A stretch of DNA of 9,557 nt. Source: an uncultured Clostridia bacterium. Lineage in GTDB: Bacteria; Bacillota; Clostridia; Oscillospirales; Acutalibacteraceae. The notes beneath the pieces were generated by a model. The model saw only the letters and a program-made list of their open reading frames with translations. It did no database searches and was not told where the DNA came from. Of the stretch, positions 568 to 9,557 are shown one piece after another. A program made the translations under genes and the position numbers. The DNA lies in the NCBI GenBank assembly GCA_947302895.1, contig CAMYWU010000043.1:1-9557 (forward strand), read 5' to 3'. Position 1 is the stretch's first letter. The number at the start of each line of letters is the position of its first letter.

Positions 568-612
568 CTATCTATTAGTTTATTTTAAAATAGCATAATA
601 GGAGTTTTGACT

Positions 613-2415
613 ATGAGCGAAAAGACTAAGAACGGTGAATTTGAAGAAAACGAACTTGAAAAGTCAAATTCATCCAAGGAAGTAACTTTTGAAGAAAACG
701 ATAACTGGGAGTTTCAGGCAAGGGCTTTAACTCTTGAAAACGATGATTTTGAAGCTGATACCGATTATGAAAAGGTTCAAAGTGAAAAGGAAGAAAAAAA
801 TGAGCCCGAAAAAAAGCCCGTTGTAAAAGCAAAGGAAAAGTCGCCGAAAAAGCTTTCAAAGAATACTATTAAGTTTATCATAACCGGAATTATCTGTGCA
901 ATTGTTGCGGCACTTCTCATTGTTTTTGGTGTTAATTATTACACTCAGCCAAATACCAACGAAAAAATGAATCCCGGTAATGTTGCACTCAGGGTTGATA
1001 AAACCCCCGTTTCAATCGGTATGTATAACTATTATTATAACGCTGTTTCAAACAACTATATCAGCTATGCGCAGCAGGGTTATTATGATATAGATACCTC
1101 AGTTGATTATTCAAAGCAGAAAACAACTGATGCCGACGGTAACGAAATAACCTGGGCTCAGATGTTTGAAAACGAAACAATCGACCGTGTTCAGTATATA
1201 ACAGCATATTATCAGGAAGCTGTTAAGCACGGCGTAACCCTTACAGATACCCAGAAGGAAGAAATCGAGAAAAACATCAAGAGCATTAAGGATGCCGCTT
1301 CCGAGGCTGATTTATCTGTTGATGAATATGTTTCCTCAACCTATGGCGAATACTGCGGTGTTGCAACAATCAGAAAGCTTCTTGAACAAAGCTATGCAGC
1401 AAATAATTATTATCGCCAGTATCTGATTGAAAACAAGGTTGATGAAAAGGCTGTTGAGGCTTATTTTGAAGAGCATAAGGATGATTATACAGAGGTTGAC
1501 TTTGCATATCTCTTTGTAACCTATGATTCAAGCGATGCCAACGCAAAGGCTGAGGCAGAGAAAAACGCTAAGAAATACGCTTCACAGATTAAGAATGTAA
1601 ACGATTTGAAGAAGCTTATTCCAACAGCTTGCAAGGATATAGTCGACCAGTATGTTTCAGCAGGTTATTATGCTGATGCAGACGCTTGCGCTGAAGCAAT
1701 TGCAAGCAGTGTTGAAACCTCTATAACTAAGAGCGATAATTCCTTCACCGAGGCTGGTTCAGCATGGCTCTTTGATTCAAACACAAAGAAGGGCGATTGT
1801 TCGGCATTCCTTGATGAAACCAATTCAATGTATTTCATTCTTCTTAAAACAGGCGAGCCCAGCGTTGCTGATGATGAGGTGTATTCCGTTCGCCATATTC
1901 TGATTATGCCCGGCGACGAGGAAGAAGAAAGCTCCGAGGCTCAAACAACAAAGAAGGAACACACAAAAGAGGAATGGGCAGAAGCTGAAAAGAAGGCTAA
2001 TACAATTCTTGAAGAATACAAAAAAGGCAAGAAAACCGAATATGAATTTGCTCTTCTTGCTGAAAAGTATTCAGAAGATACCGGTTCAACCTCAAAGGGC
2101 TCAAATGGTATGTATGGCGGTCTTTACGAGGGTGTTCCGCTCGGACAGATGGTAAAGGAATTTGAGAGCTGGTCAACCGATAAATCAAGAAAATACGGCG
2201 ATACCGATATAGTTAAATCGGATCACGGCTATCATATTATGTTCTTTGTTGAAGACACAAATTCAAGCTTGTTCAAGAGCGAGCAGGCAGTTGTTGCCGA
2301 AAAGGAACAGGAATATATCAAGTCCTTTAAGGTTAAGAAAAACAGAAGATCAATGAAGAAAACCATGGTTGCAAAGCCTCAGAGCGCTGAAGAAACAACA
2401 GAGGCTGCAAATTAA
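613..2415 (+). CDS. Membrane-anchored parvulin-type peptidyl-prolyl isomerase (PrsA/PpiC-like), paralog 1
   Basis: 600 residues. Likely an extracytoplasmic foldase that isomerises peptidyl-proline bonds in exported proteins. Residues 1-86 form a highly charged, Glu/Lys-rich cytoplasmic tail; 87-108 are a single transmembrane anchor with no lipobox cysteine, so unlike classical PrsA this is not a lipoprotein. A SurA/PrsA-like helical region follows (YNYYYN near 138-143, EITWAQM further on). The parvulin domain spans about 422-547, with the HILI strand (His428) and the C-terminal HGYHIMF motif (His541), both expected active-site histidines. An acidic Ser/Thr-rich insert follows HILI. The ATG at 613 is preferred over the in-frame TTG at 607 because AGGAG (600-604) is 8 nt upstream of the ATG but only 2 nt from the TTG. 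A close paralog lies directly downstream. Confidence 0.9.
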   Translation: MSEKTKNGEFEENELEKSNSSKEVTFEENDNWEFQARALTLENDDFEADTDYEKVQSEKEEKNEPEKKPVVKAKEKSPKKLSKNTIKFIITGIICAIVAALLIVFGVNYYTQPNTNEKMNPGNVALRVDKTPVSIGMYNYYYNAVSNNYISYAQQGYYDIDTSVDYSKQKTTDADGNEITWAQMFENETIDRVQYITAYYQEAVKHGVTLTDTQKEEIEKNIKSIKDAASEADLSVDEYVSSTYGEYCGVATIRKLLEQSYAANNYYRQYLIENKVDEKAVEAYFEEHKDDYTEVDFAYLFVTYDSSDANAKAEAEKNAKKYASQIKNVNDLKKLIPTACKDIVDQYVSAGYYADADACAEAIASSVETSITKSDNSFTEAGSAWLFDSNTKKGDCSAFLDETNSMYFILLKTGEPSVADDEVYSVRHILIMPGDEEEESSEAQTTKKEHTKEEWAEAEKKANTILEEYKKGKKTEYEFALLAEKYSEDTGSTSKGSNGMYGGLYEGVPLGQMVKEFESWSTDKSRKYGDTDIVKSDHGYHIMFFVEDTNSSLFKSEQAVVAEKEQEYIKSFKVKKNRRSMKKTMVAKPQSAEETTEAAN

Positions 2416-2427
2416 TAAAAATAATTC

Positions 2428-2456
2428 TTGTAATATTAAAGAGTTTATAGTAGAAT
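2428..2456 (+). promoter_or_regulatory. Possible internal sigma-A promoter before the second foldase gene
   Basis: TTGTAA (2428-2433, 4 of 6) and TAGAAT (2451-2456, 5 of 6) are separated by 17 bp in the 79-bp gap between the two paralogs. No terminator hairpin is visible in the gap, so the second gene could be read both from here and from the promoter at 539-567. Confidence 0.45.
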
Positions 2457-2494
2457 ATTAAGGAAATTTTAGCAGAAAGGCTATGTGATAAAAT

Positions 2495-4456
2495 ATGGCA
2501 AAGGATATCGAAAAAGAAAAGGAAGAGCTCCTCGAAGAAGAGCTCAGCGAAAAAACGGAAGAGGCTAAAGAAGAAAAAAAACCCTCCAAGGAAGAAAAGG
2601 CAGCTGAAAAAGCAGCTCAGAAGGAAGAAAAAGCTGCTAAGAAGGCAGAAAAGGAAGAACAAAAGCTCAATGAAAAAAGAGAAAAAGCTGAGGCAAGAAA
2701 AAAGGAAATCGTTGCCGAGGTTCGTGAGCTTAAAACTCAGATTGCCGAAGAAACAGACGAGAAGAAAAAGAATAAGCTTCGCCGTCAGAGAGACGACCTT
2801 ATCGCTCAGAGAGACGCGATCAATAAGAGCAAGGACGGAATAACAATTCCTATGGCTCCTCTTGCTAAAAGAAGACTCAGGGCTTGTATTGCAATTGTTG
2901 TTGTTATTGCGTTCCTCTTTGTTTACGTTCAGAGCGGAATGGTTCGCCATGGTTTAATGGGTGCGTTAGGCGTACCGCAGAGCACTTTTACAGGTATGGT
3001 TGTTAAGGATGGCGACGGCAAGAATCATGCAATAAAGGTAAGCACTTATAACTACTACTATGCAATGCTTTATAATCAGCTTCGTCAGACTCAGGAGCAG
3101 TATGAGCAGTATGGTGTTGAGCTTTCAGACGACCAGAAGATTGATTTCGATAAGAAGCTTTCTCAGCAGAAAACTAAGGACCCCGATGACGAAACAAAGG
3201 AAATCACCTGGGCTGAGTATATGCATGATCAGGTTTTGGATAATGTTAAAGCAACCTATATGTATTATTATGAGGCTGTTAAGGCAAACGACGGTAAAGA
3301 ACCCAAAATCACTGATGACCAGCAAAAAGAGATTGATGAGGCAGTTGATAACTATAAATCAACCGCTGAAAGCCAGGGTGTTACCGTTAGCGCATATTTC
3401 ACCTATGTTATGGGTAAGGGTGTAACCGAAAAGGTATTCCGCAACGAAGCAAAGATATCTTATATTTCTGAGAATTATCAGGAAGACTATCAAAAAGAGC
3501 TTTCCTCAAAGCAATATGATGAATCAGAATACGAAAAATACCGTGATGAGAACAAGGCAGACCTTGTAAGCGTTGATATTAAGTATTTTGAGTGCGACAC
3601 TGAGGATGATGCAAAGGCATTCAAAAAGGCTCTTAAGGCAGACGGTTCAAACTTTGCAGCTCTTGCTTCAAAGTATGCTTCTTCCGATTGGGATAAAGAG
3701 GCAAATAAGAATGCCGTTGAAACAACTTATGTTGATATAACAATGCCTACTCTTAAGAATATGAACGGCGGTATTGCAGCAGCCGATGAACACGAAGACG
3801 GCGAGGAAGAAGAACAAACCTATTCAGGTCTTGACTGGGTATTCTCCACCGACAGAAAAGCCGGCGATGTTAAGCAGGTTTCAACCTCAGTTGTTTATAT
3901 CATCAAGCCTGCAAGACTTTCAGATACTCATCCTGTATCAGTTCGCCATATCCTTATCAAGCCCTATAGCGAAACAACCAATGATGACGGCGAAGTTAGC
4001 GAAACAGAAGCTGAAACTCCTTCAGAAGCTTCAAAAGAGGAATGGGCAAACGCTAAGGCAAAGGCTGATAAGATTTATAAGCAGTATAAAGACGGCGAAA
4101 AGACCGCTGAGGCATTCGGCGAACTCGCAAAGGATAATTCAGCAGACAGCAACGCTTCCGACGGCGGTATTTACGAAAACGTTACTCCAAACCAGATGGT
4201 TCCGACCTTCAATGCATGGTGCTTCGATAAGAACCGCAAGGAAGGCGATACAGGAATCGTTAAGACTGAATACGGTTATCATATTATATATTTCGAAGGA
4301 ACAAGCGATTTAACTGTATGGCAGTATACTGCTCAGCAGGCGCTTGCAAGCGATGACGGAAAAGAGGCAACCGAGAAGCTTGAAAAGTCCTATTCAATCA
4401 AGCAGACTTGGCTCGGCTCACGTTACTTCGAAAAAGATACCGATATTGATTCATAA
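2495..4456 (+). CDS. Membrane-anchored parvulin-type peptidyl-prolyl isomerase (PrsA/PpiC-like), paralog 2
   Basis: 653 residues, paralogous to the preceding gene in domain order and in motifs: YNYYYAM near 185-191, EITWAEYM, and a YYYEAVK segment matching YYQEAVK in paralog 1. Residues 1-125 are an extreme Lys/Glu/Ala-rich tail predicted to be coiled coil, followed by a membrane anchor at about 129-147; the remainder should lie outside the membrane. The parvulin domain runs from about 479 to 603 with RHILI (His485) and YGYHII (His596). An acidic Ser/Thr insert (TNDDGEVSETEAE) again follows HILI. ATG at 2495 is the only sensible start; its nearest ribosome site, AAAGG at 2476-2480, is 14 nt away, which is long. 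Role as a folding helper for secreted or envelope proteins is inferred from the family. The tail may bind cytoplasmic partners, but nothing here shows that. Confidence 0.88.
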   Translation: MAKDIEKEKEELLEEELSEKTEEAKEEKKPSKEEKAAEKAAQKEEKAAKKAEKEEQKLNEKREKAEARKKEIVAEVRELKTQIAEETDEKKKNKLRRQRDDLIAQRDAINKSKDGITIPMAPLAKRRLRACIAIVVVIAFLFVYVQSGMVRHGLMGALGVPQSTFTGMVVKDGDGKNHAIKVSTYNYYYAMLYNQLRQTQEQYEQYGVELSDDQKIDFDKKLSQQKTKDPDDETKEITWAEYMHDQVLDNVKATYMYYYEAVKANDGKEPKITDDQQKEIDEAVDNYKSTAESQGVTVSAYFTYVMGKGVTEKVFRNEAKISYISENYQEDYQKELSSKQYDESEYEKYRDENKADLVSVDIKYFECDTEDDAKAFKKALKADGSNFAALASKYASSDWDKEANKNAVETTYVDITMPTLKNMNGGIAAADEHEDGEEEEQTYSGLDWVFSTDRKAGDVKQVSTSVVYIIKPARLSDTHPVSVRHILIKPYSETTNDDGEVSETEAETPSEASKEEWANAKAKADKIYKQYKDGEKTAEAFGELAKDNSADSNASDGGIYENVTPNQMVPTFNAWCFDKNRKEGDTGIVKTEYGYHIIYFEGTSDLTVWQYTAQQALASDDGKEATEKLEKSYSIKQTWLGSRYFEKDTDIDS

Positions 4457-4463
4457 TCACATT

Positions 4464-4700
4464 ATGGCTATTATTTCAAAAAACAAAGAGCTTGAACAGC
4501 TGAAAAAGGAAAACGCAAGATTAAAAGCAGCTCTTAGCGAAGCGGAGTTTGAAAACCAGAGGCTTGAGATTATAAACAGCAATCTTGAAAATCAGCTTGC
4601 TGAATCAAACAGAGAGCTTGGCGAAAATATCGAGGTTCTGCAGAGTCTCAAGGGCGAAATTGAAAACCTTGTCAGCAATCTTCAAAGCTACAGAAAATAA
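4464..4700 (+). CDS. Small coiled-coil protein, function unknown
   Basis: 78 residues starting MAIISKNKELEQL. Apart from the first six residues it is a single predicted coiled coil: leucine or isoleucine fills most a/d heptad positions (L10, L13, L20, L24, L34, L41, L45, L52, L59, L62, I66, L69, L73), with Asn at several a positions (17, 31, 38), typical of parallel dimeric zippers. No membrane segment or enzyme motif is visible. It begins 7 nt after the stop of foldase paralog 2, and no Shine-Dalgarno is evident, so translation is probably coupled to that gene. The frame is open further upstream to an ATG at 4344, but that part is a shadow of the foldase gene. I do not recognise a family. 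It is the last gene before the hairpin at 4710-4745. Confidence 0.7.
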   Translation: MAIISKNKELEQLKKENARLKAALSEAEFENQRLEIINSNLENQLAESNRELGENIEVLQSLKGEIENLVSNLQSYRK

Positions 4701-4702
4701 TG

Positions 4703-4731
4703 TTATATTAACCTCCGATACTGCATATGCT
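4703..4731 (+). promoter_or_regulatory. Sigma-E-like sporulation promoter for yabPQ
   Basis: TTATATT (4703-4709) matches the B. subtilis sigma-E -35 consensus KMATATT at 6 of 7 positions. After a 14-bp spacer, CATATGCT (4724-4731) resembles the -10 consensus CATACANT, with two mismatches. yabP and yabQ belong to the sigma-E regulon in B. subtilis, and sigE itself is in this window. The predicted start, near 4737-4739, falls in the Shine-Dalgarno. The match is seen in sequence; the sigma assignment is inferred. Confidence 0.5.
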
Positions 4732-4745
4732 TTATCGGAGGTTTT
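4710..4745 (+). terminator. Terminator-like hairpin whose 3' arm is the yabP ribosome site
   Basis: An 11-bp perfect stem pairs 4710-4720 (AACCTCCGATA) with 4733-4743 (TATCGGAGGTT) around a 12-nt loop, and TTTT (4742-4745) closes the structure. It would end transcripts of the foldase/coiled-coil operon. The 3' arm contains GGAGG (4737-4741), exactly 7 nt before the yabP ATG, so in any read-through RNA the ribosome site is paired. The palindromic loop GCATATGC carries the sigma-E-like -10. Confidence 0.75.
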
Positions 4746-4748
4746 AAT

Positions 4749-5021
4749 ATGCAGGAAAATTTAGAAAAGAAAAATCACAGCTTATCAATCAACAACAGGG
4801 AAAACATTGAAATAAACGGTGTTAAGGATGTTGCGTATTTCAACGAGGAGGAGGTAAGCGCCTCGTGCGATTGCGGAAGCATTCTTATCAAGGGAACCCA
4901 CTTGCTTGTTGAAGCGCTCGACCTTGATAACGGTGTACTTATTATCAACGGAAGAATAACTGCGGTTGTATACAGCGAGAAAACGGGCTCAAAGAAGCTG
5001 CTCGGGAAGTTTTTTTCATAG
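4749..5021 (+). CDS. yabP: Sporulation protein YabP
   Basis: 90 residues, typical length for the YabP/YqfC family. After a short polar N-terminus (MQENLEKKNHSLSINNREN) come the family features: an INGVKDV segment, the FNEEEV motif, the ILIKGTHLLVEALDLDNGVLII beta-strand core ending in NGRITAVVYSE. Family members are made in the mother cell under sigma-E control and contribute to spore formation; the molecular function is unknown. The start is secured by GGAGG at 4737-4741 with 7-nt spacing to ATG. The C-terminus ends in Phe-Phe-Ser, encoded by a run of seven T (5010-5016) directly before the TAG, and yabQ follows in the -1 frame. Order yabP-yabQ-divIC is conserved in Bacillus and Clostridia, which supports all three calls. 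Confidence 0.88.
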   Translation: MQENLEKKNHSLSINNRENIEINGVKDVAYFNEEEVSASCDCGSILIKGTHLLVEALDLDNGVLIINGRITAVVYSEKTGSKKLLGKFFS

Positions 5022-5047
5022 TAAAAGCATTAACGGCCTTTGCAGTT

Positions 5048-5314
5048 TTGGGCTTGATTCTCGGCTTTTTATACGATGTGTTTTATCTGCTTAACACTAA
5101 AGTTAAAAAAAGATGGTTCTTGTTTTTAGCAGATATAGTGTTTTCCCTGATTTTTACAGTTTTGTTTTTTTGTTTTTTAATCGGTTTTAACGGCGGTGAA
5201 TTCAGAGCTGTATTTTTGATTGATTGCCTTGCAGCTCTTTGTCTGAATTTGGCTTTATTACGCAAAATTCAACGAGTTTTCAACAAGTTGTTGAAAGACG
5301 GTCAAAAACTTTAA
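5048..5314 (+). CDS. yabQ: Spore cortex protein YabQ (start uncertain, probably further upstream)
   Basis: 88 residues from the first canonical start (TTG 5048). YabQ is an integral membrane protein needed for spore cortex formation in B. subtilis. The family signature is visible: a first helix ending in GLILGFLYDVFYLL, a basic loop KVKKRWFLFLADIVF, then a second helix followed by FNGGEFR, matching the G-E-(L/F)-R segment of YabQ, and a third helix. It is a shorter form than B. subtilis YabQ. The TTG has no ribosome site and cuts into the first helix. The same frame continues upstream through IVKALTAFAV back into the end of yabP, which fits the family's usual N-terminus, but no ATG/GTG/TTG is present there; ATA at 5018 overlaps the yabP stop. 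See the finding on this start. Confidence 0.75.
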   Translation: MGLILGFLYDVFYLLNTKVKKRWFLFLADIVFSLIFTVLFFCFLIGFNGGEFRAVFLIDCLAALCLNLALLRKIQRVFNKLLKDGQKL

Positions 5315-5364
5315 TTTTGTTTTCAAATTGTAACCTTTTTTTTGAAAAAACACGAAAAAAACTA

Positions 5365-5394
5365 TTGCAATATATCTATATAGTGTAGTATAAT
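5365..5394 (+). promoter_or_regulatory. Sigma-A promoter of divIC
   Basis: TTGCAA (5365-5370, 4 of 6) and a perfect TATAAT (5389-5394) are separated by 18 bp. The start would be near 5401, giving a leader of about 44 nt before the TTG at 5445. This gives the division gene vegetative expression independent of yabPQ. Confidence 0.65.
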
Positions 5395-5444
5395 AAATTT
5401 ACTAACCGTATATTGTTATATGCGTTGTGTATGAGGCGATAGAT

Positions 5445-5744
5445 TTGAATCAGAGAATTATGAAAATTGTTAAAAGCAAGTCATTTGTTAAGCTCGTTAT
5501 CGGCATTTTGTTCCTCGGGCTTGTTTGCTATTGCTCATACACTCTTATCAGTAACTATTCCGATATCAGCAGGCTCAATGCTCAGGCAGCGGAGCTCAAT
5601 ACTCAGTATGATAATCAGCTTAAGGAAAATGAAAAGATAAAGGCAATTCTTAATTCCGATAATAAAGATGAGTATATTGAGCAAAAGGCAAGAGAAAAGG
5701 GCTATGTTAAGGATGGCGAAATAGTTTTCTACGACATATCATAA
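5445..5744 (+). CDS. divIC: Septum formation initiator DivIC (FtsB-like)
   Basis: 99 residues of bitopic membrane protein. A short basic cytoplasmic N-terminus (MNQRIMKIVKSKS) leads into one transmembrane helix (about 15-37), a coiled coil (ISRLNAQAAELNTQYDNQLKENEKIKAIL) and the diagnostic C-terminal motif EYIEQKAREKGYVKDGEIVF shared by DivIC/FtsB proteins. It acts in the divisome with FtsL and DivIB/FtsQ to trigger septal peptidoglycan synthesis. Three starts are possible: GTG 5427, TTG 5445 and ATG 5460. I choose TTG 5445 because TGAGG (5432-5436) lies 8 nt upstream, while GTG 5427 has no ribosome site. It is the third member of the conserved yabP-yabQ-divIC order but has its own promoter and terminator. 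Confidence 0.9.
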   Translation: MNQRIMKIVKSKSFVKLVIGILFLGLVCYCSYTLISNYSDISRLNAQAAELNTQYDNQLKENEKIKAILNSDNKDEYIEQKAREKGYVKDGEIVFYDIS

Positions 5745-5756
5745 AATATTAATTGT

Positions 5757-5784
5757 GGGCGGATGATATCCGCCCGAAATTTTT
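5757..5784 (+). terminator. Rho-independent terminator after divIC
   Basis: GGGCGGAT (5757-5764) pairs perfectly with ATCCGCCC (5768-5775) around a 3-nt loop; GAAA and then five T (5780-5784) follow. The stem is GC-rich and strong, the T-run slightly displaced. Unlike the hairpins at 4710 and 6951 it does not include the next gene's ribosome site, which starts six bases further on. Confidence 0.75.
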
Positions 5785-5801
5785 ATATAAAGGAAAATAA
5801 A

Positions 5802-6917
5802 ATGAACTTATTAATGACTGCGCCTTGTCTTCTCGGTATTGAGGGGCTTGTTGGCGATGAATTGAAAATGATGGGTGCGAGTAATGTTGCTCCCGAAAAC
5901 GCCAGAGTTTTCTTTGAAGGAAACGAGGATATTCTTGCAAGGGCAAATTTAAACTCACGCTTTTCTGAAAGAATATTAATTGTTCTCGGCAGATTTAATG
6001 CATTAACATTTGAAGAGCTTTTTCAGAGCGTTAAAGCAATCAGCTGGGCTGATTTTATCGGCGCTAACGATACTTTTCCCGTTAAGGGCTTTTCAATCAA
6101 TTCAACTCTTCATTCAATTCCCGATTGCCAGAGCATAATAAAAAAAGCGGTTGTTGAATCGCTTAAAGAGGACTACGGTATTTCCTGGTTTGAGGAAACA
6201 GGACCTGTTCATCAGATTCAGTTTTCAATAATCAAGGATGAGGTTTGCATTATGCTTGATTCAAGCGGTATGAGCCTTCATAAAAGGGGATACCGCCCAT
6301 CATCAAACGATGCTCCTATAAGAGAAACGCTTGCCGCTGCGATGTGCTCCCTTTCAAAGCTCAGGCATTACCATACTCTTTACGATCCCTGCTGCGGAAG
6401 CGGAACAATTCTTATTGAGGGTGCGCTTCTTGCAAACAATATTGCGCCGGGACTTGGCAGGGGATTTGCATTTGAAAGATGGGGCTTGATTGATGAAAGT
6501 GTAATCAAAAGCGAAAAAGAGCGCTGCCATGATTTAGTTAAGAAAGATACTGATTTTTGCGCTATCGGAAGCGATATTGACAGCGCAGCAGTTGAGCTTA
6601 CTCTTCATAACGCCAATAAAGCAGGGGTTGCAAACTTCATCAGGGCATCCCAGGCGGACATAAGAGTTTTTAATCCATCAACAGAAAAGGGAACGCTTGT
6701 TACCAATCCTCCATACGGCGAAAGAATGCTTGATATAAAAGAGGCTGAAAAAATCTATCGCATTATGGGCGAAAAATTCATTTCAAAATACGGCTGGTCT
6801 TACGGAATTATTTCACCCGATGAGGAGTTTGAAAAATGCTTCGGCAGAAAAGCCGATAAGCGCCGTAAGCTATACAACGGCAATATCAAATGCCAATACT
6901 ATATGTTTTTTAAATAA
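5802..6917 (+). CDS. THUMP-domain class I SAM-dependent RNA guanine-N2 methyltransferase (RlmL/YpsC family)
   Basis: 371 residues, full length for the single-domain Firmicute YpsC group (E. coli RlmL carries an additional RlmK domain). Residues 1-60 form the N-terminal ferredoxin-like part, about 60-160 the THUMP RNA-binding domain, and 165-371 the Rossmann methyltransferase. The SAM-binding motif I is DPCCGSGTILIEGA from residue 195; GSDID gives the acidic ribose-binding loop; NPPYGERM from residue 302 is the catalytic N-P-P-Y motif of N2-guanine/N6-adenine methyltransferases. HKRGYRPSSNDAPIRETLAA is the family's linker motif. Likely product: an m2G in 23S rRNA. Start at ATG 5802 is supported by AAAGGAAA with 7-nt spacing; the frame is open to 5763 only across the terminator. 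No promoter is visible directly upstream. Confidence 0.9.
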   Translation: MNLLMTAPCLLGIEGLVGDELKMMGASNVAPENARVFFEGNEDILARANLNSRFSERILIVLGRFNALTFEELFQSVKAISWADFIGANDTFPVKGFSINSTLHSIPDCQSIIKKAVVESLKEDYGISWFEETGPVHQIQFSIIKDEVCIMLDSSGMSLHKRGYRPSSNDAPIRETLAAAMCSLSKLRHYHTLYDPCCGSGTILIEGALLANNIAPGLGRGFAFERWGLIDESVIKSEKERCHDLVKKDTDFCAIGSDIDSAAVELTLHNANKAGVANFIRASQADIRVFNPSTEKGTLVTNPPYGERMLDIKEAEKIYRIMGEKFISKYGWSYGIISPDEEFEKCFGRKADKRRKLYNGNIKCQYYMFFK

Positions 6918-6936
6918 ATTTAAAATCTGAATTTAC

Positions 6937-6970
6937 TTTGACAAAAAAATCTCTCCTTGCAAGTTATAAT
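6937..6970 (+). promoter_or_regulatory. spoIIG-type promoter: consensus hexamers with 21-bp spacer and Spo0A-like box
   Basis: TTGACA (6938-6943) and TATAAT (6965-6970) are both perfect sigma-A hexamers but are 21 bp apart, instead of 17. The B. subtilis spoIIG promoter is known for the same oddity (22-bp spacer) and depends on phosphorylated Spo0A bound across the -35. Here TTTGACA (6937-6943) overlaps the -35 and matches the Spo0A box TTCGACA at 6 of 7 positions. The predicted start is near 6977. Sequence is direct; Spo0A control is inferred from homology of design. Confidence 0.8.
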
Positions 6971-6992
6971 CGATTTGCAAGGGGGGATTTTT
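6951..6992 (+). terminator. Terminator-like hairpin whose 3' arm is the spoIIGA ribosome site
   Basis: CTCTCCTTGCAA (6951-6962) pairs with TTGCAAGGGGGG (6975-6986) in a 12-bp stem with two G-U pairs; the 12-nt loop contains the TATAAT. ATTTTTATT follows, with five T at 6988-6992. It can end transcripts coming from the upstream methyltransferase gene. The 3' arm includes the AAGGGGG ribosome site of spoIIGA. Confidence 0.7.
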
Positions 6993-7796
6993 ATTGTTAT
7001 TTATGCAGATGTTTTATTCATCGTTAACTTTTTTATAACCCTTTTGCTGCTTGAATTAACCGCAAAAGCGGGAAAGAGAAACCCGAAAACCTTCAGAATT
7101 GTTATATCCTCTGCGCTCGGCGGAGCATATTCGCTTATAATATTGATTGATGATATTCCCATAGTTCTGTTGCTGCTTTCAAAAATCGGTTTTGCAATAC
7201 TCTTAATTCTGATTTCATTTTCATTTGTAAGGCTGAAAAGCTTTTTATCAATGCTGTTGATATTCATGTTTTCAAACTTCGTTTTTCTCGGAATTATTGC
7301 AGGCCTGCAGATGATTTTTCACAGCGACAGAATCAGCATCAATAACGGTGAAATTTATTTTGATATAAACGCTCGTCAGCTGCTGTTTGCGGCTCTGCTT
7401 GCATATGCCGCCTCCTGTCTGATAATAAGGTTATATAATAAAAAGCTCTCAGCAGGCGAGATATACAGCATTCTGATTTTTAATAACGGCAAACAAATAA
7501 ACGCTTTTGCTCTATCGGATACGGGGAATAAACTTCGTGAGCCGTTTTCAAATGCACCTGTTATAATTGTTAAAAGCGAGCTTCTGCAAGGCTTTTATGA
7601 TGAGGAAAAAGCAAGGCTTATTCCTGCGTCAACGATTAATTCAAAATCCTTTTTATACGCCTTTAAGCCCGAATGCGTTAAGGTTAAAACCTCAAAGGGG
7701 TGGGAGATTATCGAAAATGTTTACATAGCTTCAAGTGATGAAATCAATTCAAAGAGTTTTTCCGCAATTATTAATCCCGAAATTATTTCAGTTTAG
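6993..7796 (+). CDS. spoIIGA: SpoIIGA, pro-sigma-E processing aspartic protease
   Basis: 267 residues from ATT 6993. SpoIIGA sits in the sporulation septum and cleaves the N-terminal pro-peptide of SigE when signalled by SpoIIR. The N-terminal half is a five-helix membrane domain beginning VIYADVLFIVNFF, the family's typical first residues. The C-terminal cytoplasmic half holds LSDTGNKLREPF with catalytic Asp176 (aligned with Asp183 of B. subtilis) and ends in FSAIINPEIISV, the F-x-I-x-N-P-E segment of the family. TTG codons at 6957 and 6975 are in frame, but they lie in the promoter/hairpin and before the predicted transcript start. ATT 6993 lies 7 nt after AAGGGGG, gives the family N-terminus, and is my choice although ATT is rare as a start. 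sigE follows 9 bp after the stop. Confidence 0.9.
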   Translation: MVIYADVLFIVNFFITLLLLELTAKAGKRNPKTFRIVISSALGGAYSLIILIDDIPIVLLLLSKIGFAILLILISFSFVRLKSFLSMLLIFMFSNFVFLGIIAGLQMIFHSDRISINNGEIYFDINARQLLFAALLAYAASCLIIRLYNKKLSAGEIYSILIFNNGKQINAFALSDTGNKLREPFSNAPVIIVKSELLQGFYDEEKARLIPASTINSKSFLYAFKPECVKVKTSKGWEIIENVYIASSDEINSKSFSAIINPEIISV

Positions 7797-7805
7797 GTGA
7801 TACAT

Positions 7806-8513
7806 ATGAGCTTAATTAATAAGATTTTCAATTTTATTGTTCAGAAAATTATTTATGAGGAATACTGCTTTTATATCAACGGTCCCGAAACGCTTCCGCC
7901 GCCGCTTACAAGGGAGGAAGAGGAAACAATAGTTGAGCAGATTAGAAGCGGAGACGAAACAAACCGTGATTTGCTTATAACGCATAATCTGCGCCTCGTT
8001 GTTTATATTGCAAAGAAATATGAGAGCAAAACAGCAGGCGCCGAGGATTTGGTTTCAATAGGAACAATCGGGCTTATGAAGGCGGTCAGAACCTTTAATC
8101 CCGATAAGAATATAAAAATTGCAACCTATGCTTCAAGATGTATTGAAAACGAGATACTTATGTATTTAAGAAAAGCCTCTAATTCAAAGATTGAAATGAG
8201 CTTTGATGAACCGCTTTCAATAGATTGGGACGGAAATGAGCTCACTTTGCGTGATGTTCTCGGCTCCGAGCCCGATGAAATCAGCCAGGGAATTGAATAC
8301 GAGGATGAAAAGCGCCTTTTAAGGTATATTATTTCAAATCTTTCCCAGAAGGAAAAGAGCATTATGGAGCAGCGCTTCGGCTTAAACGGAACTCAGCTGC
8401 TAACCCAAAAAGAGCTTGCCGATGATATGGGAATATCGCAATCGTATATTTCCCGCCTTGAAAAACGCATTCTAACAAAAATCAAGGACGAAATGGAGCG
8501 CCACATAGTATAA
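7806..8513 (+). CDS. sigE: RNA polymerase sporulation sigma factor SigE (pro-sigma-E)
   Basis: 235 residues, near the 239 of B. subtilis. The first early mother-cell sigma factor, made as an inactive membrane-bound precursor. Residues 1-22 are a hydrophobic/basic amphipathic pro-sequence (MSLINKIFNFIVQKIIYEEY), and FYINGPETLPPPL aligns with the B. subtilis cleavage region YYIGGSEALPPPL. Region 2 is NLRLVVYIAKK (from N61) through EDLVSIGTIGLMKAV and ATYASRCIENEILMYLR; FDEPLSIDWDGNEL is highly conserved in SigE. Region 4.2 helix-turn-helix is TQKELADDMGISQSYISRLEKRI from T200. Start: ATG 7806 follows AGGTGAT (7795-7801), a 7-nt match to the anti-Shine-Dalgarno; GTG 7797 lies inside that site and is rejected. 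Probably translationally coupled to spoIIGA. sigG, often next in line, is absent. Confidence 0.97.
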   Translation: MSLINKIFNFIVQKIIYEEYCFYINGPETLPPPLTREEEETIVEQIRSGDETNRDLLITHNLRLVVYIAKKYESKTAGAEDLVSIGTIGLMKAVRTFNPDKNIKIATYASRCIENEILMYLRKASNSKIEMSFDEPLSIDWDGNELTLRDVLGSEPDEISQGIEYEDEKRLLRYIISNLSQKEKSIMEQRFGLNGTQLLTQKELADDMGISQSYISRLEKRILTKIKDEMERHIV

Positions 8514-8515
8514 AA

Positions 8516-8546
8516 AAACACAAAAGGGACTGTCCCTTTTGTGTTT
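8516..8546. terminator. Strong two-way terminator after sigE
   Basis: A perfect 14-bp inverted repeat, 8516-8529 and 8533-8546, with a CTG loop. On the plus strand the 3' arm ends in GTGTTT, giving only a weak T-tract; on the minus strand the run of A at 8512-8518 supplies a T-run. It therefore serves sigE and the converging DUF378 gene. The GGGACTGTCCC core is the strongest inverted repeat in the window. Confidence 0.85.
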
Positions 8547-8550
8547 AATA

Positions 8551-8577
8551 TGTAGGGAGCGGCGACCCCGACGCTCC
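8551..8577. repeat. Short GC-rich palindrome, possible dispersed intergenic repeat
   Basis: TGTAGGGAGCGGCGACCCCGACGCTCC contains GGAGCG (8556-8561) and CGCTCC (8572-8577) as a 6-bp stem around GC-rich sequence, in an otherwise A/T-rich intergenic gap. TGTAGGG-plus-palindrome units of this kind recur between genes in some Clostridia. I see one copy only, so dispersal is inference. Confidence 0.35.
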
Positions 8578-8588
8578 AATAATAATAA

Positions 8589-8795
8589 TTAGTCCTCTAA
8601 TGCGTTATTCCTGAATAAAAGGCTGATACACCAGATTGCTGCAAGGGCAACGAGAGTATATATAATTCTTGCAAAAACTCCGCTCTGACCGCCGCCAATC
8701 CAGGCAACCAAATCAAACTGGAAAATTCCGATAAGACCCCAGTTGATTCCGCCTATTATTGTTAAAATCAGCGCAATTTTATCAAGTATTCTCAT
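8589..8795 (-). CDS. DUF378 family small membrane protein
   Basis: 68 residues with two predicted membrane helices: ALILTIIGGINWGLIGIFQF (about 8-27) and RIIYTLVALAAIWCISLLF (about 43-61). The GGINWGLIG motif is the hallmark of DUF378 (B. subtilis YuzA-like), a family without known function. It ends in a polar tail RNNALED. ATG at 8795-8793 is preceded by AAAAGGAG (complement of 8805-8812), 9 nt away and a strong ribosome site that is also the 3' arm of a hairpin. It lies downstream of manA on the same strand and converges on sigE. A functional link to either neighbour is not apparent. Confidence 0.85.
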   Translation of the reverse strand: MRILDKIALILTIIGGINWGLIGIFQFDLVAWIGGGQSGVFARIIYTLVALAAIWCISLLFRNNALED

Positions 8796-8837
8796 AAAAA
8801 ATCACTCCTTTTAGTCTATTGTTGACCTAAAGGAGTG
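8796..8837 (-). terminator. Terminator-like hairpin after manA whose 3' arm is the DUF378 ribosome site
   Basis: Read on the minus strand, CACTCCTTT (8837-8829) pairs perfectly with AAAGGAGTG (8811-8803), with three further G-T-C/G-A-C pairs inside after a small internal mismatch. A single A and then six T (8801-8796) follow and run directly into the ATG. The 3' arm includes the AAGGAG ribosome site. It would end manA transcripts and mask translation of the DUF378 gene in read-through RNA. Confidence 0.65.
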
Positions 8838-8848
8838 GTTTTATTCTT

Positions 8849-9557
8849 TTATATTTCTGTTACCAAAATTTCCATTTCACCGCTGATTTTGTATTCGCCG
8901 AAGTTTGCAGGAACAAAGAAGGAATCTCCCTTCTTTGCATTTGCGCCTTCAACCTTGCCATTTCCGTCTATAACAAGAATATGATTGAAGCTCATATCAT
9001 CTGTTTTAAGCGTTATTTCATCTTTAATATCGTAGCGGTTAACGGTGAATAAATCGCATTTTGTTAAAAGCTGTGAAATGCCGCCGCTGATTTCTTTTTC
9101 TTCGCCCTGGGGCTTTATATCGTATTTTGGCGGCTCTGTTTTTGAAACGTCAATTGCTTTTTGGATATGAAGCTCTCTCGGCTTGCCGTCCTTGCCGATT
9201 CTTCCGTAGTCATAAACTCTGTATGTGCAGTTTGAATTCTGCTGAATTTCGGCAATAAGAGCGCCCTTTCCGATAGCGTGAACCGTTCCTGCCTCAATAA
9301 AGAATAAATCGCCCTTTTTAACCTTAACGCTGTTGAGCTTATCAAGCAGAGTATTGTTTTCTATTGCCTTTTTAAATTCTTCGGAGGTGATTTTTTCCTT
9401 GAAGCCGTAAATCAACTGAGCATCATCAATCGCATCAAGAACATACCAGATTTCTGTTTTGCCGAATTCATTTTCAACCCTGCGTGCATAGTCATCGTCG
9501 GGATGAACCTGAACGGAGAGATTATCGAATGCATCAAGAAGCTTTATAAGAACGGGG
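8849..9557 (-). CDS. manA: Mannose-6-phosphate isomerase, class I (partial, N-terminus beyond the window)
   Basis: The frame is open from the right edge for 235 residues to TAA at 8851-8849. Interconverts mannose 6-phosphate and fructose 6-phosphate with a bound zinc. The visible part begins PVLIKLLDAFDNLSVQVHPDDDYA, which carries the Gln and His zinc ligands (Q-V-H-P-D-D), then FGKTEIWYVLDA with the Glu ligand, GDLFFIEAGTVHAIGKG with the second His ligand, and YRVYDYGRIGKDGKPRELHIQKA, a conserved core motif. A C-terminal beta domain ends GEMEILVTEI. Firmicute class I enzymes are about 315-325 residues, so some 80-90 N-terminal residues are missing at the right edge. A TTG at 9415 opens an internal frame but is not the start, since conserved sequence continues upstream of it. 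Confidence 0.95.
   Translation of the reverse strand, partial: PVLIKLLDAFDNLSVQVHPDDDYARRVENEFGKTEIWYVLDAIDDAQLIYGFKEKITSEEFKKAIENNTLLDKLNSVKVKKGDLFFIEAGTVHAIGKGALIAEIQQNSNCTYRVYDYGRIGKDGKPRELHIQKAIDVSKTEPPKYDIKPQGEEKEISGGISQLLTKCDLFTVNRYDIKDEITLKTDDMSFNHILVIDGNGKVEGANAKKGDSFFVPANFGEYKISGEMEILVTEI

Follow-up and report, generated by a model that had tools for sequence, protein, structure and literature searches.

Terminator-like hairpins that enclose a predicted promoter and the ribosome-binding site of the next gene: candidate one-way insulators of sporulation genes in a genus of Clostridia

Late genes of phage T4 such as gene e and I-TevI are carried on long early RNAs in which the Shine-Dalgarno (SD) sequence is hidden, while RNA from the late promoter just upstream lacks the 5' strand of the hairpin and is translated, as described in the available parts of PMC2988022 and PMC3014915. 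For sigG (spoIIIG) of Bacillus subtilis, a hairpin of 20+ bp in read-through RNA has been proposed (Sun et al. 1991 and one other paper, both as cited in PMC5942855). Here, we describe a stretch of 9,557 nucleotides (the window) from an uncultured Clostridia bacterium of the family Acutalibacteraceae, in which three gene junctions appear to follow a related logic: J1 before yabP, J2 before spoIIGA and J3, on the minus strand, before a gene for a small DUF378 protein. We lean toward the interpretation that their hairpins belong to a genus-wide set of compact one-way insulators, in which a sporulation promoter lies in the loop of a terminator, the 3' arm is the SD sequence, read-through is stopped twice, by termination and by masking, and the gene's own transcript is free. 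The sequence of such an insulator would be freely redesigned, and the hairpin would be lost when the neighbor turns away.

The layout that the initial annotation had proposed for the three junctions is real. We compared the minimum free energy with the mean of shuffled sequences, which gave -22.8 against -8.3 at J1 (z -6.07), -32.2 at J2, with a 21-pair stem, against -8.9 (z -10.5), and -19.0 at J3, with one A.A mismatch in the stem, against -6.7 (z -5.3); at each junction, all 200 dinucleotide shuffles folded less stably than the native sequence. In all three, the SD lies inside the 3' arm and is followed by T's, and the start codon lies 0-3 nt past the T run. The annotation had placed a -10 element in two of the loops; the location stands, but the count does not, as each of the three loops holds a -10-like element, that of J3 being of the forespore type by consensus. 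Its statement that the layout recurs without the stems being copies of one repeat is borne out by the arms, which differ between genes and between species. The -35-like and -10-like elements are 14 nt apart at J1, 21 nt at J2 and 18 nt at J3. Judging from consensus sequences, we take J1 to carry a sigma-E promoter, J2 a sigma-A promoter with Spo0A and J3 a promoter of a forespore sigma factor. TTTGACAA (6937-6944), which overlaps the -35 of spoIIGA, resembles an inverted Spo0A box, and TTTGACA is likewise Spo0A-box-like; the 21-nt spacer of J2 is reminiscent of the long-spaced spoIIG promoter of B. subtilis. A stem and a T tract, as in intrinsic terminators, are present. J2 was listed by a terminator scan and J1 and J3 by a larger-loop finder, because their loops or tails exceed the limits or threshold of the scan. 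A simple promoter scan returned 39 sites against 22.9 in shuffles and did not list the J2 promoter because its spacer is 21 nt. No Rfam model matched the window at gathering score.

Growing cells have to keep sporulation off, but the sporulation genes of these genomes lie a few tens of bases downstream of co-directional genes. In our model, read-through RNA from the upstream gene would fold into the terminator-like hairpin, halting transcription or hiding the SD. By contrast, RNA from the gene's own promoter would begin inside or beside the 3' arm and, because the predicted promoter sits inside the hairpin, would have a very short leader that lacks the 5' arm and would hence be translated. As a result, sporulation genes packed behind other operons would not be expressed before their own sigma factor becomes active. 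The central feature, beyond the plain overlap with the SD, would be the gene's own predicted promoter inside the hairpin. We measured SD occlusion as the energy cost of freeing positions -16 to -6 and called it strong at ≤ -10 kcal/mol; shuffled rates were lower with a metric restricted to the motif itself than with this fixed window, from which all figures quoted are taken. For own transcripts, modeled as RNA begun 5-8 nt after the -10 where one was found, the predicted SD occlusion averages between -0.8 and 0 kcal/mol, depending on the gene. We are fairly confident that the lock would close on read-through RNA alone and that the own transcript would escape it.

The annotation had asked for a genome-wide comparison with shuffled controls. 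We sampled 540 kb of the same genome and 800 kb of the relative G007, together 1086 genes from a simple gene caller, and derived expectations by shuffling the sequence upstream of position -18. Nine genes reached ≤ -16 kcal/mol against 0.18 expected, 13 against 0.92 reached ≤ -14 and 33 against 12.98 reached ≤ -10. Thus, the layout is rare, yet its strong class lies far above chance. The nine strongest precede genes for a SpoIIQ-like M23 peptidase, a transpeptidase resembling penicillin-binding protein (PBP) 2 or SpoVD, pdaA, DUF378 and yabP (both in each genome), an ArsR-type regulator and an open reading frame (ORF) of no assigned family, and sporulation families, about whose enrichment the annotation had asked, are prominent among them. 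The spoIIGA gene of the window is absent from these matches because its AUU start was missed by the caller, which also misplaces some starts (e.g. L224 and L123). YabP and SpoIIGA are identified by Pfam, while PdaA and the SpoIIQ-like and PBP2/SpoVD-like proteins are named from NCBIfam matches below curated cut-offs; the Pgp3 peptidase family scores slightly above SpoIIQ for the M23 gene, and PBP2 above SpoVD for the PBP gene.

For conservation, 72 nt upstream were compared across genomes of the genus, with one locus per genome and the window's own genome included. The genus is known from animal-gut samples. Seven of ten named relatives, whose sources include deer, goat and rabbit, are labelled Eubacterium. 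Usable loci came from 35 of 37 genomes for spoIIGA (G004 was left out as near a contig end and G020 as lacking the N-terminus), 35 for yabP (two without match) and 34 for DUF378 (three without match); for the further genes, we took 30 loci from 41 matching genomes for SpoIIQ-like, 30 from 36 for pdaA and 30 from 34 for PBP, and, for comparison and extra genes, 29 from 30 for spoIVA, 30 from 31 for gpr, 30 from 41 for sigG-like and 30 from 33 for dUTPase. A strong SD hairpin was present at 28/35 spoIIGA, 25/35 yabP, 18/34 DUF378, 25/30 SpoIIQ-like, 28/30 pdaA and 29/30 PBP2/SpoVD-like loci; among comparison genes, the count was 0/30 for sigE, 0/30 for gpr, 0/29 for spoIVA and 1/30 for sigG-like.

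Within the strong hairpins, the arms keep their complementarity while drifting, with several pair types per position, and the number of distinct 3' arms is 21 for spoIIGA, 16 for yabP, 8 for DUF378, 16 for pdaA and 14 for PBP. When 5' halves were swapped between species, mean occlusion weakened from -15.9 to -8.3 for spoIIGA, -13.7 to -5.9 for yabP, -10.6 to -6.0 for DUF378, -17.2 to -9.4 for pdaA and -17.2 to -10.8 for PBP. The 5' arms therefore covary with the 3' arms in relatives, the second test that the annotation had named; this includes pdaA and PBP, while SpoIIQ-like arms are largely conserved. On the genome sample and the relatives compared, neither of its two tests went against its proposal. 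Promoter-like bases stay fixed. Of the 35 spoIIGA leaders, the 23 that were aligned form the main clade with strong hairpins, and their only invariant bases are GACA, TATAAT and one additional A; in CATA of the yabP -10, the T and the second A are invariant and the C and the first A reach at least 90% (alignment A2, 13/35 loci); and in GAATA of DUF378, the G, the second A, the T and the last A are invariant (alignment A3, 14/34 loci). A -10-like element lies at the loop in 27/28 spoIIGA, 27/29 PBP, 23/28 pdaA, 21/25 SpoIIQ-like, 18/25 yabP and 16/18 DUF378 strong hairpins, counts that are weakened as evidence by patterns picked after viewing the leaders and by having no chance control. In 125/170 hairpins, the sense strand gives a more stable fold than the complementary strand (Wilcoxon 4e-15), and 234 of 2306 pairs are G.U, which argues for a function in RNA over a symmetry of the DNA.

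A hairpin that guards against read-through is expected to be dispensable behind a divergent neighbor. Across the six genes, it was present at 146/177 loci with a co-directional upstream gene and at 2/11 with a divergent one (Fisher 1.6e-5), six of 194 loci having been set aside for a contig edge or the lack of a called upstream gene; with a less strict rule for calling genes, the counts were 145/177 and 4/13 (1.7e-4). The nine divergent losses are spread over spoIIGA (4 of 7), SpoIIQ-like (3 of 5), DUF378 (1) and pdaA (1). The comparison gene gpr, which is without the hairpin, has a divergent neighbor at 29/30 loci by a codon-scored rule and at 18/30 by a cruder one. The median distance behind the co-directional upstream ORF is 41-75 nt, depending on the gene. 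These data agree with the annotation's proposal of insulation between co-directional operons.

The overlap with the SD is not universal. By eye, 16 weakly occluded DUF378 loci have a hairpin with CATACTA-like bases and the SD outside, and sigG-like loci have a separate hairpin with CATAATA-like loop bases at 8/23 loci with a co-directional neighbor and 0/7 with a divergent one, the SD following at a distance of some 30 nt or more. Because these hairpins lack SD overlap, we regard the promoter-in-hairpin as the common denominator and the 3' arm doubling as SD, which the annotation had described and which is seen at J1-J3, as a tighter variant. A strict regex-plus-helix search for a promoter in a terminator, which we use as support only, returned 130/230 co-directional and 1/47 divergent loci over nine genes; in part of the genome sample, -10-like loops were weakly more frequent in terminators just before genes (5/28) than in others (29/385). 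Separately, we noted that the terminator-like hairpins of sigG-like L262, L264, L271, L272, L274 and L277 carry CATAATA or CATACTA at the loop and end 31-38 nt ahead of the start codon.

The most serious alternative, to which we give a minority share of our belief, is that the hairpins are ordinary terminators that serve the upstream genes and lie tight against the following gene, so that the overlap of SD and promoter is an economy of space and the hiding of the SD has no role. TTTT within 9 nt of the start follows most strong stems (yabP 23/25, pdaA 26/28, PBP 27/29, spoIIGA 20/28, DUF378 15/18), SpoIIQ-like loci excepted; many DUF378 and some sigG-like hairpins have T's with the SD outside; and the rarity of the hairpin with divergent neighbors is as plain terminators would have it. 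However, spoIIGA loci L019, L021, L024 and L029 have strong SD pairing without a T run, 15/25 SpoIIQ-like hairpins lack TTTT, and the SD is part of the stem at six different genes. In our model, the masking half of the predicted blockade has its own support in the spoIIGA and SpoIIQ-like loci with SD pairing and no T run, and the termination half in the DUF378 and sigG-like hairpins without SD overlap.

Distinctly less probable is a leader hairpin that gates translation of the gene's own mRNA, with the promoter further upstream, comparable to an RNA thermometer or to the 5-bp hairpin that PMC5942855 describes at the sigG ribosome-binding site of B. subtilis. In the present loci, the arms drift whereas the promoter-like boxes at and around the loop stay fixed, folding energies of about -20 to -36 kcal/mol would all but shut the gene off, and a role in the own mRNA does not predict rarity behind divergent neighbors. 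More improbable still, in our view, are dyads in the DNA that surround the -10 and serve as operators for a repressor or for Spo0A: inverted repeats do flank the -10, and an ArsR-type regulator gene, where an operator is likely, is among the strongest other matches, but arm sequences differ between genes and species with no shared half-site, and G.U pairs favor folding of the sense strand except at DUF378. At the ArsR-type gene (L294:15891-16244), a long dyad spans the SD, and an operator is the likelier reading there. Finally, that a G-rich SD and a T-rich spacer mimic half a terminator by chance can be practically dismissed, since weak pairing is nearer the shuffled level (28 vs 18.75 genes at ≤ -8 kcal/mol in G000) but the strong class is far above it and is kept in many genomes with compensating arms.

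Several observations weigh against the insulator model. The own 5' half beats all others in just 14/35 spoIIGA, 14/35 yabP, 8/34 DUF378, 8/30 SpoIIQ-like, 17/30 pdaA and 5/30 PBP loci, and SpoIIQ-like arms are conserved rather than covarying, as 592/870 swaps still give ≤ -10; only 10/25 of the strong SpoIIQ-like hairpins have TTTT. For DUF378, the SD is not strongly occluded in 16/34 loci, three of the 18 strong loci (L077, L091 and L092) look like the SD-outside type by eye, the sense strand is not more stable (13/33), and RNAalifold on the alignment gave no pairs; for yabP, it gave 7 pairs, 6 with a double change, with a covariation term near zero. RNAalifold is weak on these MAFFT alignments because the arms shift register. 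Ten of 35 yabP loci lack a strong SD hairpin, all ten with co-directional neighbors and seven of these within 120 nt, and DUF378 locus L081 keeps an SD-free hairpin although its upstream ORF is called divergent. spoIVA is co-directional yet has no hairpin (0/29); it is a weak comparison gene because it lies ~12 nt behind an ORF. dUTPase, a non-sporulation gene, carries the SD hairpin in 8/30 loci. Some own-transcript folds stay occluded (worst cases SpoIIQ-like -10.5, pdaA -9.2 and DUF378 -6.1), perhaps from a misplaced -10. The relatives share kinship, so that loci are not independent. Finally, we infer the action of the boxes as promoters, their sigma factors, and termination and a translation block in cells, and termination, start sites and sigma use are predicted from sequence only.

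Outside the genus, the hairpin was uncommon in the samples taken and weak elsewhere in the order. In the same family, it preceded pdaA in 2 of 20 other genera sampled (0.4 expected), both with the most similar PdaA of the 20; in other families of the order, it preceded spoIIGA in 4/20 (1.7 expected) and yabP in 5/20 (1.4 expected).

The start position of spoIIGA is ATT in 15/35 genomes (L001-L006, L008-L010, L012, L013, L020, L204, L205 and L220), among them positions 6993-6995 of the window, TTG in nine and ACG in L011. A rare AUU start may throttle the sigma-E protease. The dUTPase loci with a hairpin are L441, L442, L445, L452, L457, L458, L460 and L461, and their stems contain, by eye, a sigma-A-like -10. 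The SD hairpin of a 268-aa ORF at L101:8450-9328, which matches no Pfam or NCBIfam family, is very strong (-20.8 kcal/mol).

The window is one contig (C43) of a 1.6-Mb draft genome that is 82% complete. It contains genes for two foldases of the peptidyl-prolyl isomerase type, a small ORF, yabP, yabQ, genes for a DivIC-type protein and an RlmL-type methyltransferase, spoIIGA and sigE, and, on the minus strand, the DUF378 gene (Table 1). The ORF upstream of the latter is presumably manA-like, judging from its sequence. The longer ORF 4344-4700 upstream of J1 had no Pfam match. The tandem PPIC-type foldase genes at 607-4456 each appear, by eye, to encode a charged N-terminal stretch followed by a hydrophobic segment, and a 14-pair terminator-like stem lies at 8516-8546 between the convergent sigE and DUF378 genes.

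Table 1. Features at the three junctions and their flanking genes, in coordinates of the window.
Feature	Position	Strand	Basis or remark
ORF upstream of J1, co-directional	4464..4700	+	coiled-coil-like by eye
TTATATT, predicted sigma-E-type -35 of yabP	4703..4709	+	sequence, consensus; 14-nt spacer to CATATGCT
J1 5' arm AACCTCCGATA (anti-SD)	4710..4720	+	folding; turns over jointly with 3' arm in relatives
J1 loop	4721-4732	+	
CATATGCT, predicted -10 in J1 loop	4724..4731	+	sequence
J1 3' arm TATCGGAGGTT	4733..4743	+	contains SD GGAGG 4737-4741
J1 T run TTTT	4742..4745	+	sequence
yabP (sporulation), ATG at 4749	4749..5021	+	PF07873, TIGR02892, both above cut-offs
RlmL-type methyltransferase upstream of J2, co-directional	5802..6917	+	profile match
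TTGACA, predicted -35 of spoIIGA	6938..6943	+	GACA invariant in 23 aligned leaders (of 35)
J2 5' arm	6945..6965	+	folding; covaries
TATAAT, predicted -10 at J2 loop	6965..6970	+	invariant in 23 aligned leaders (of 35)
J2 3' arm	6972..6992	+	SD GGGGGG 6981-6986, T run 6988-6992
spoIIGA, predicted AUU start	6993..7796	+	PF03419
DUF378 small protein gene, ATG at 8795	8589..8795	-	PF04070
J3 T run, six T	8796..8801	-	sequence
J3 3' arm, 8816-8813 + 8811-8803 (A8812 unpaired)	8803..8816	-	SD AAGGAG 8810-8805
AACAATA, predicted -10, entire J3 loop	8817..8823	-	folding
J3 5' arm, 8837-8829 + 8827-8824 (A8828 unpaired)	8824..8837	-	folding
GAATA, predicted forespore-type -35 of DUF378 gene	8842..8846	-	consensus
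Mannose-6-phosphate isomerase-like ORF upstream of J3, co-directional	8849..9556	-	presumed from sequence

If the insulator model is correct, a protein-free lock of ~40 bp, closed only by foreign RNA, solves the problem of read-through, and the free drift of the arms with kept pairing and kept promoter boxes is explained. The exclusion of read-through from developmental genes would become testable gene by gene, and standard annotation would be misled, as the same bases would be terminator, promoter and ribosome site.

In the open-licence literature, as far as titles and the starts of abstracts go, we found no recurring class of promoter-in-terminator or SD-terminator elements. The annotation's notion of an unrecognised class is not wholly apt, as single cases of the escape logic are in print for T4 and B. 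subtilis sigG; what we describe is therefore a variant of a known logic. As in T4 gene e and sigG, the SD is paired with an upstream arm in the long RNA, here by prediction and covariation. The likeness to B. subtilis sigG is the escape logic at a sporulation gene, while that case, in the available part of PMC5942855, concerns one gene and a block of translation, and the present one several other genes in a different lineage, whose hairpins have a -10-like box in the loop and, in many cases, a T run. In the present genus, the sigG-like gene has strong SD occlusion at 1/30 loci. T4 late genes have a late promoter in an SD-hiding hairpin, where our loci have a putative promoter, and the available parts of the T4 sources mention no T run; those are genes and promoters of a phage, while the hairpins described here are spread over unrelated operons of a cell. 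Intrinsic terminators likewise have a GC-containing stem followed by T's; the present hairpins, for which termination is predicted, differ in having a -10-like element in the loop and a 3' arm that doubles as the SD of the following gene. In B. mycoides, terminators are predicted between sigE and sigG (PMC3762067, available part). In engineered yeast terminator-promoter elements, a single short segment terminates one unit and initiates the following one; these are eukaryotic, and the available part of PMC10298055 does not mention SD masking. What is added here is the combination of the escape logic with terminator-like hairpins, recurring across a genus.

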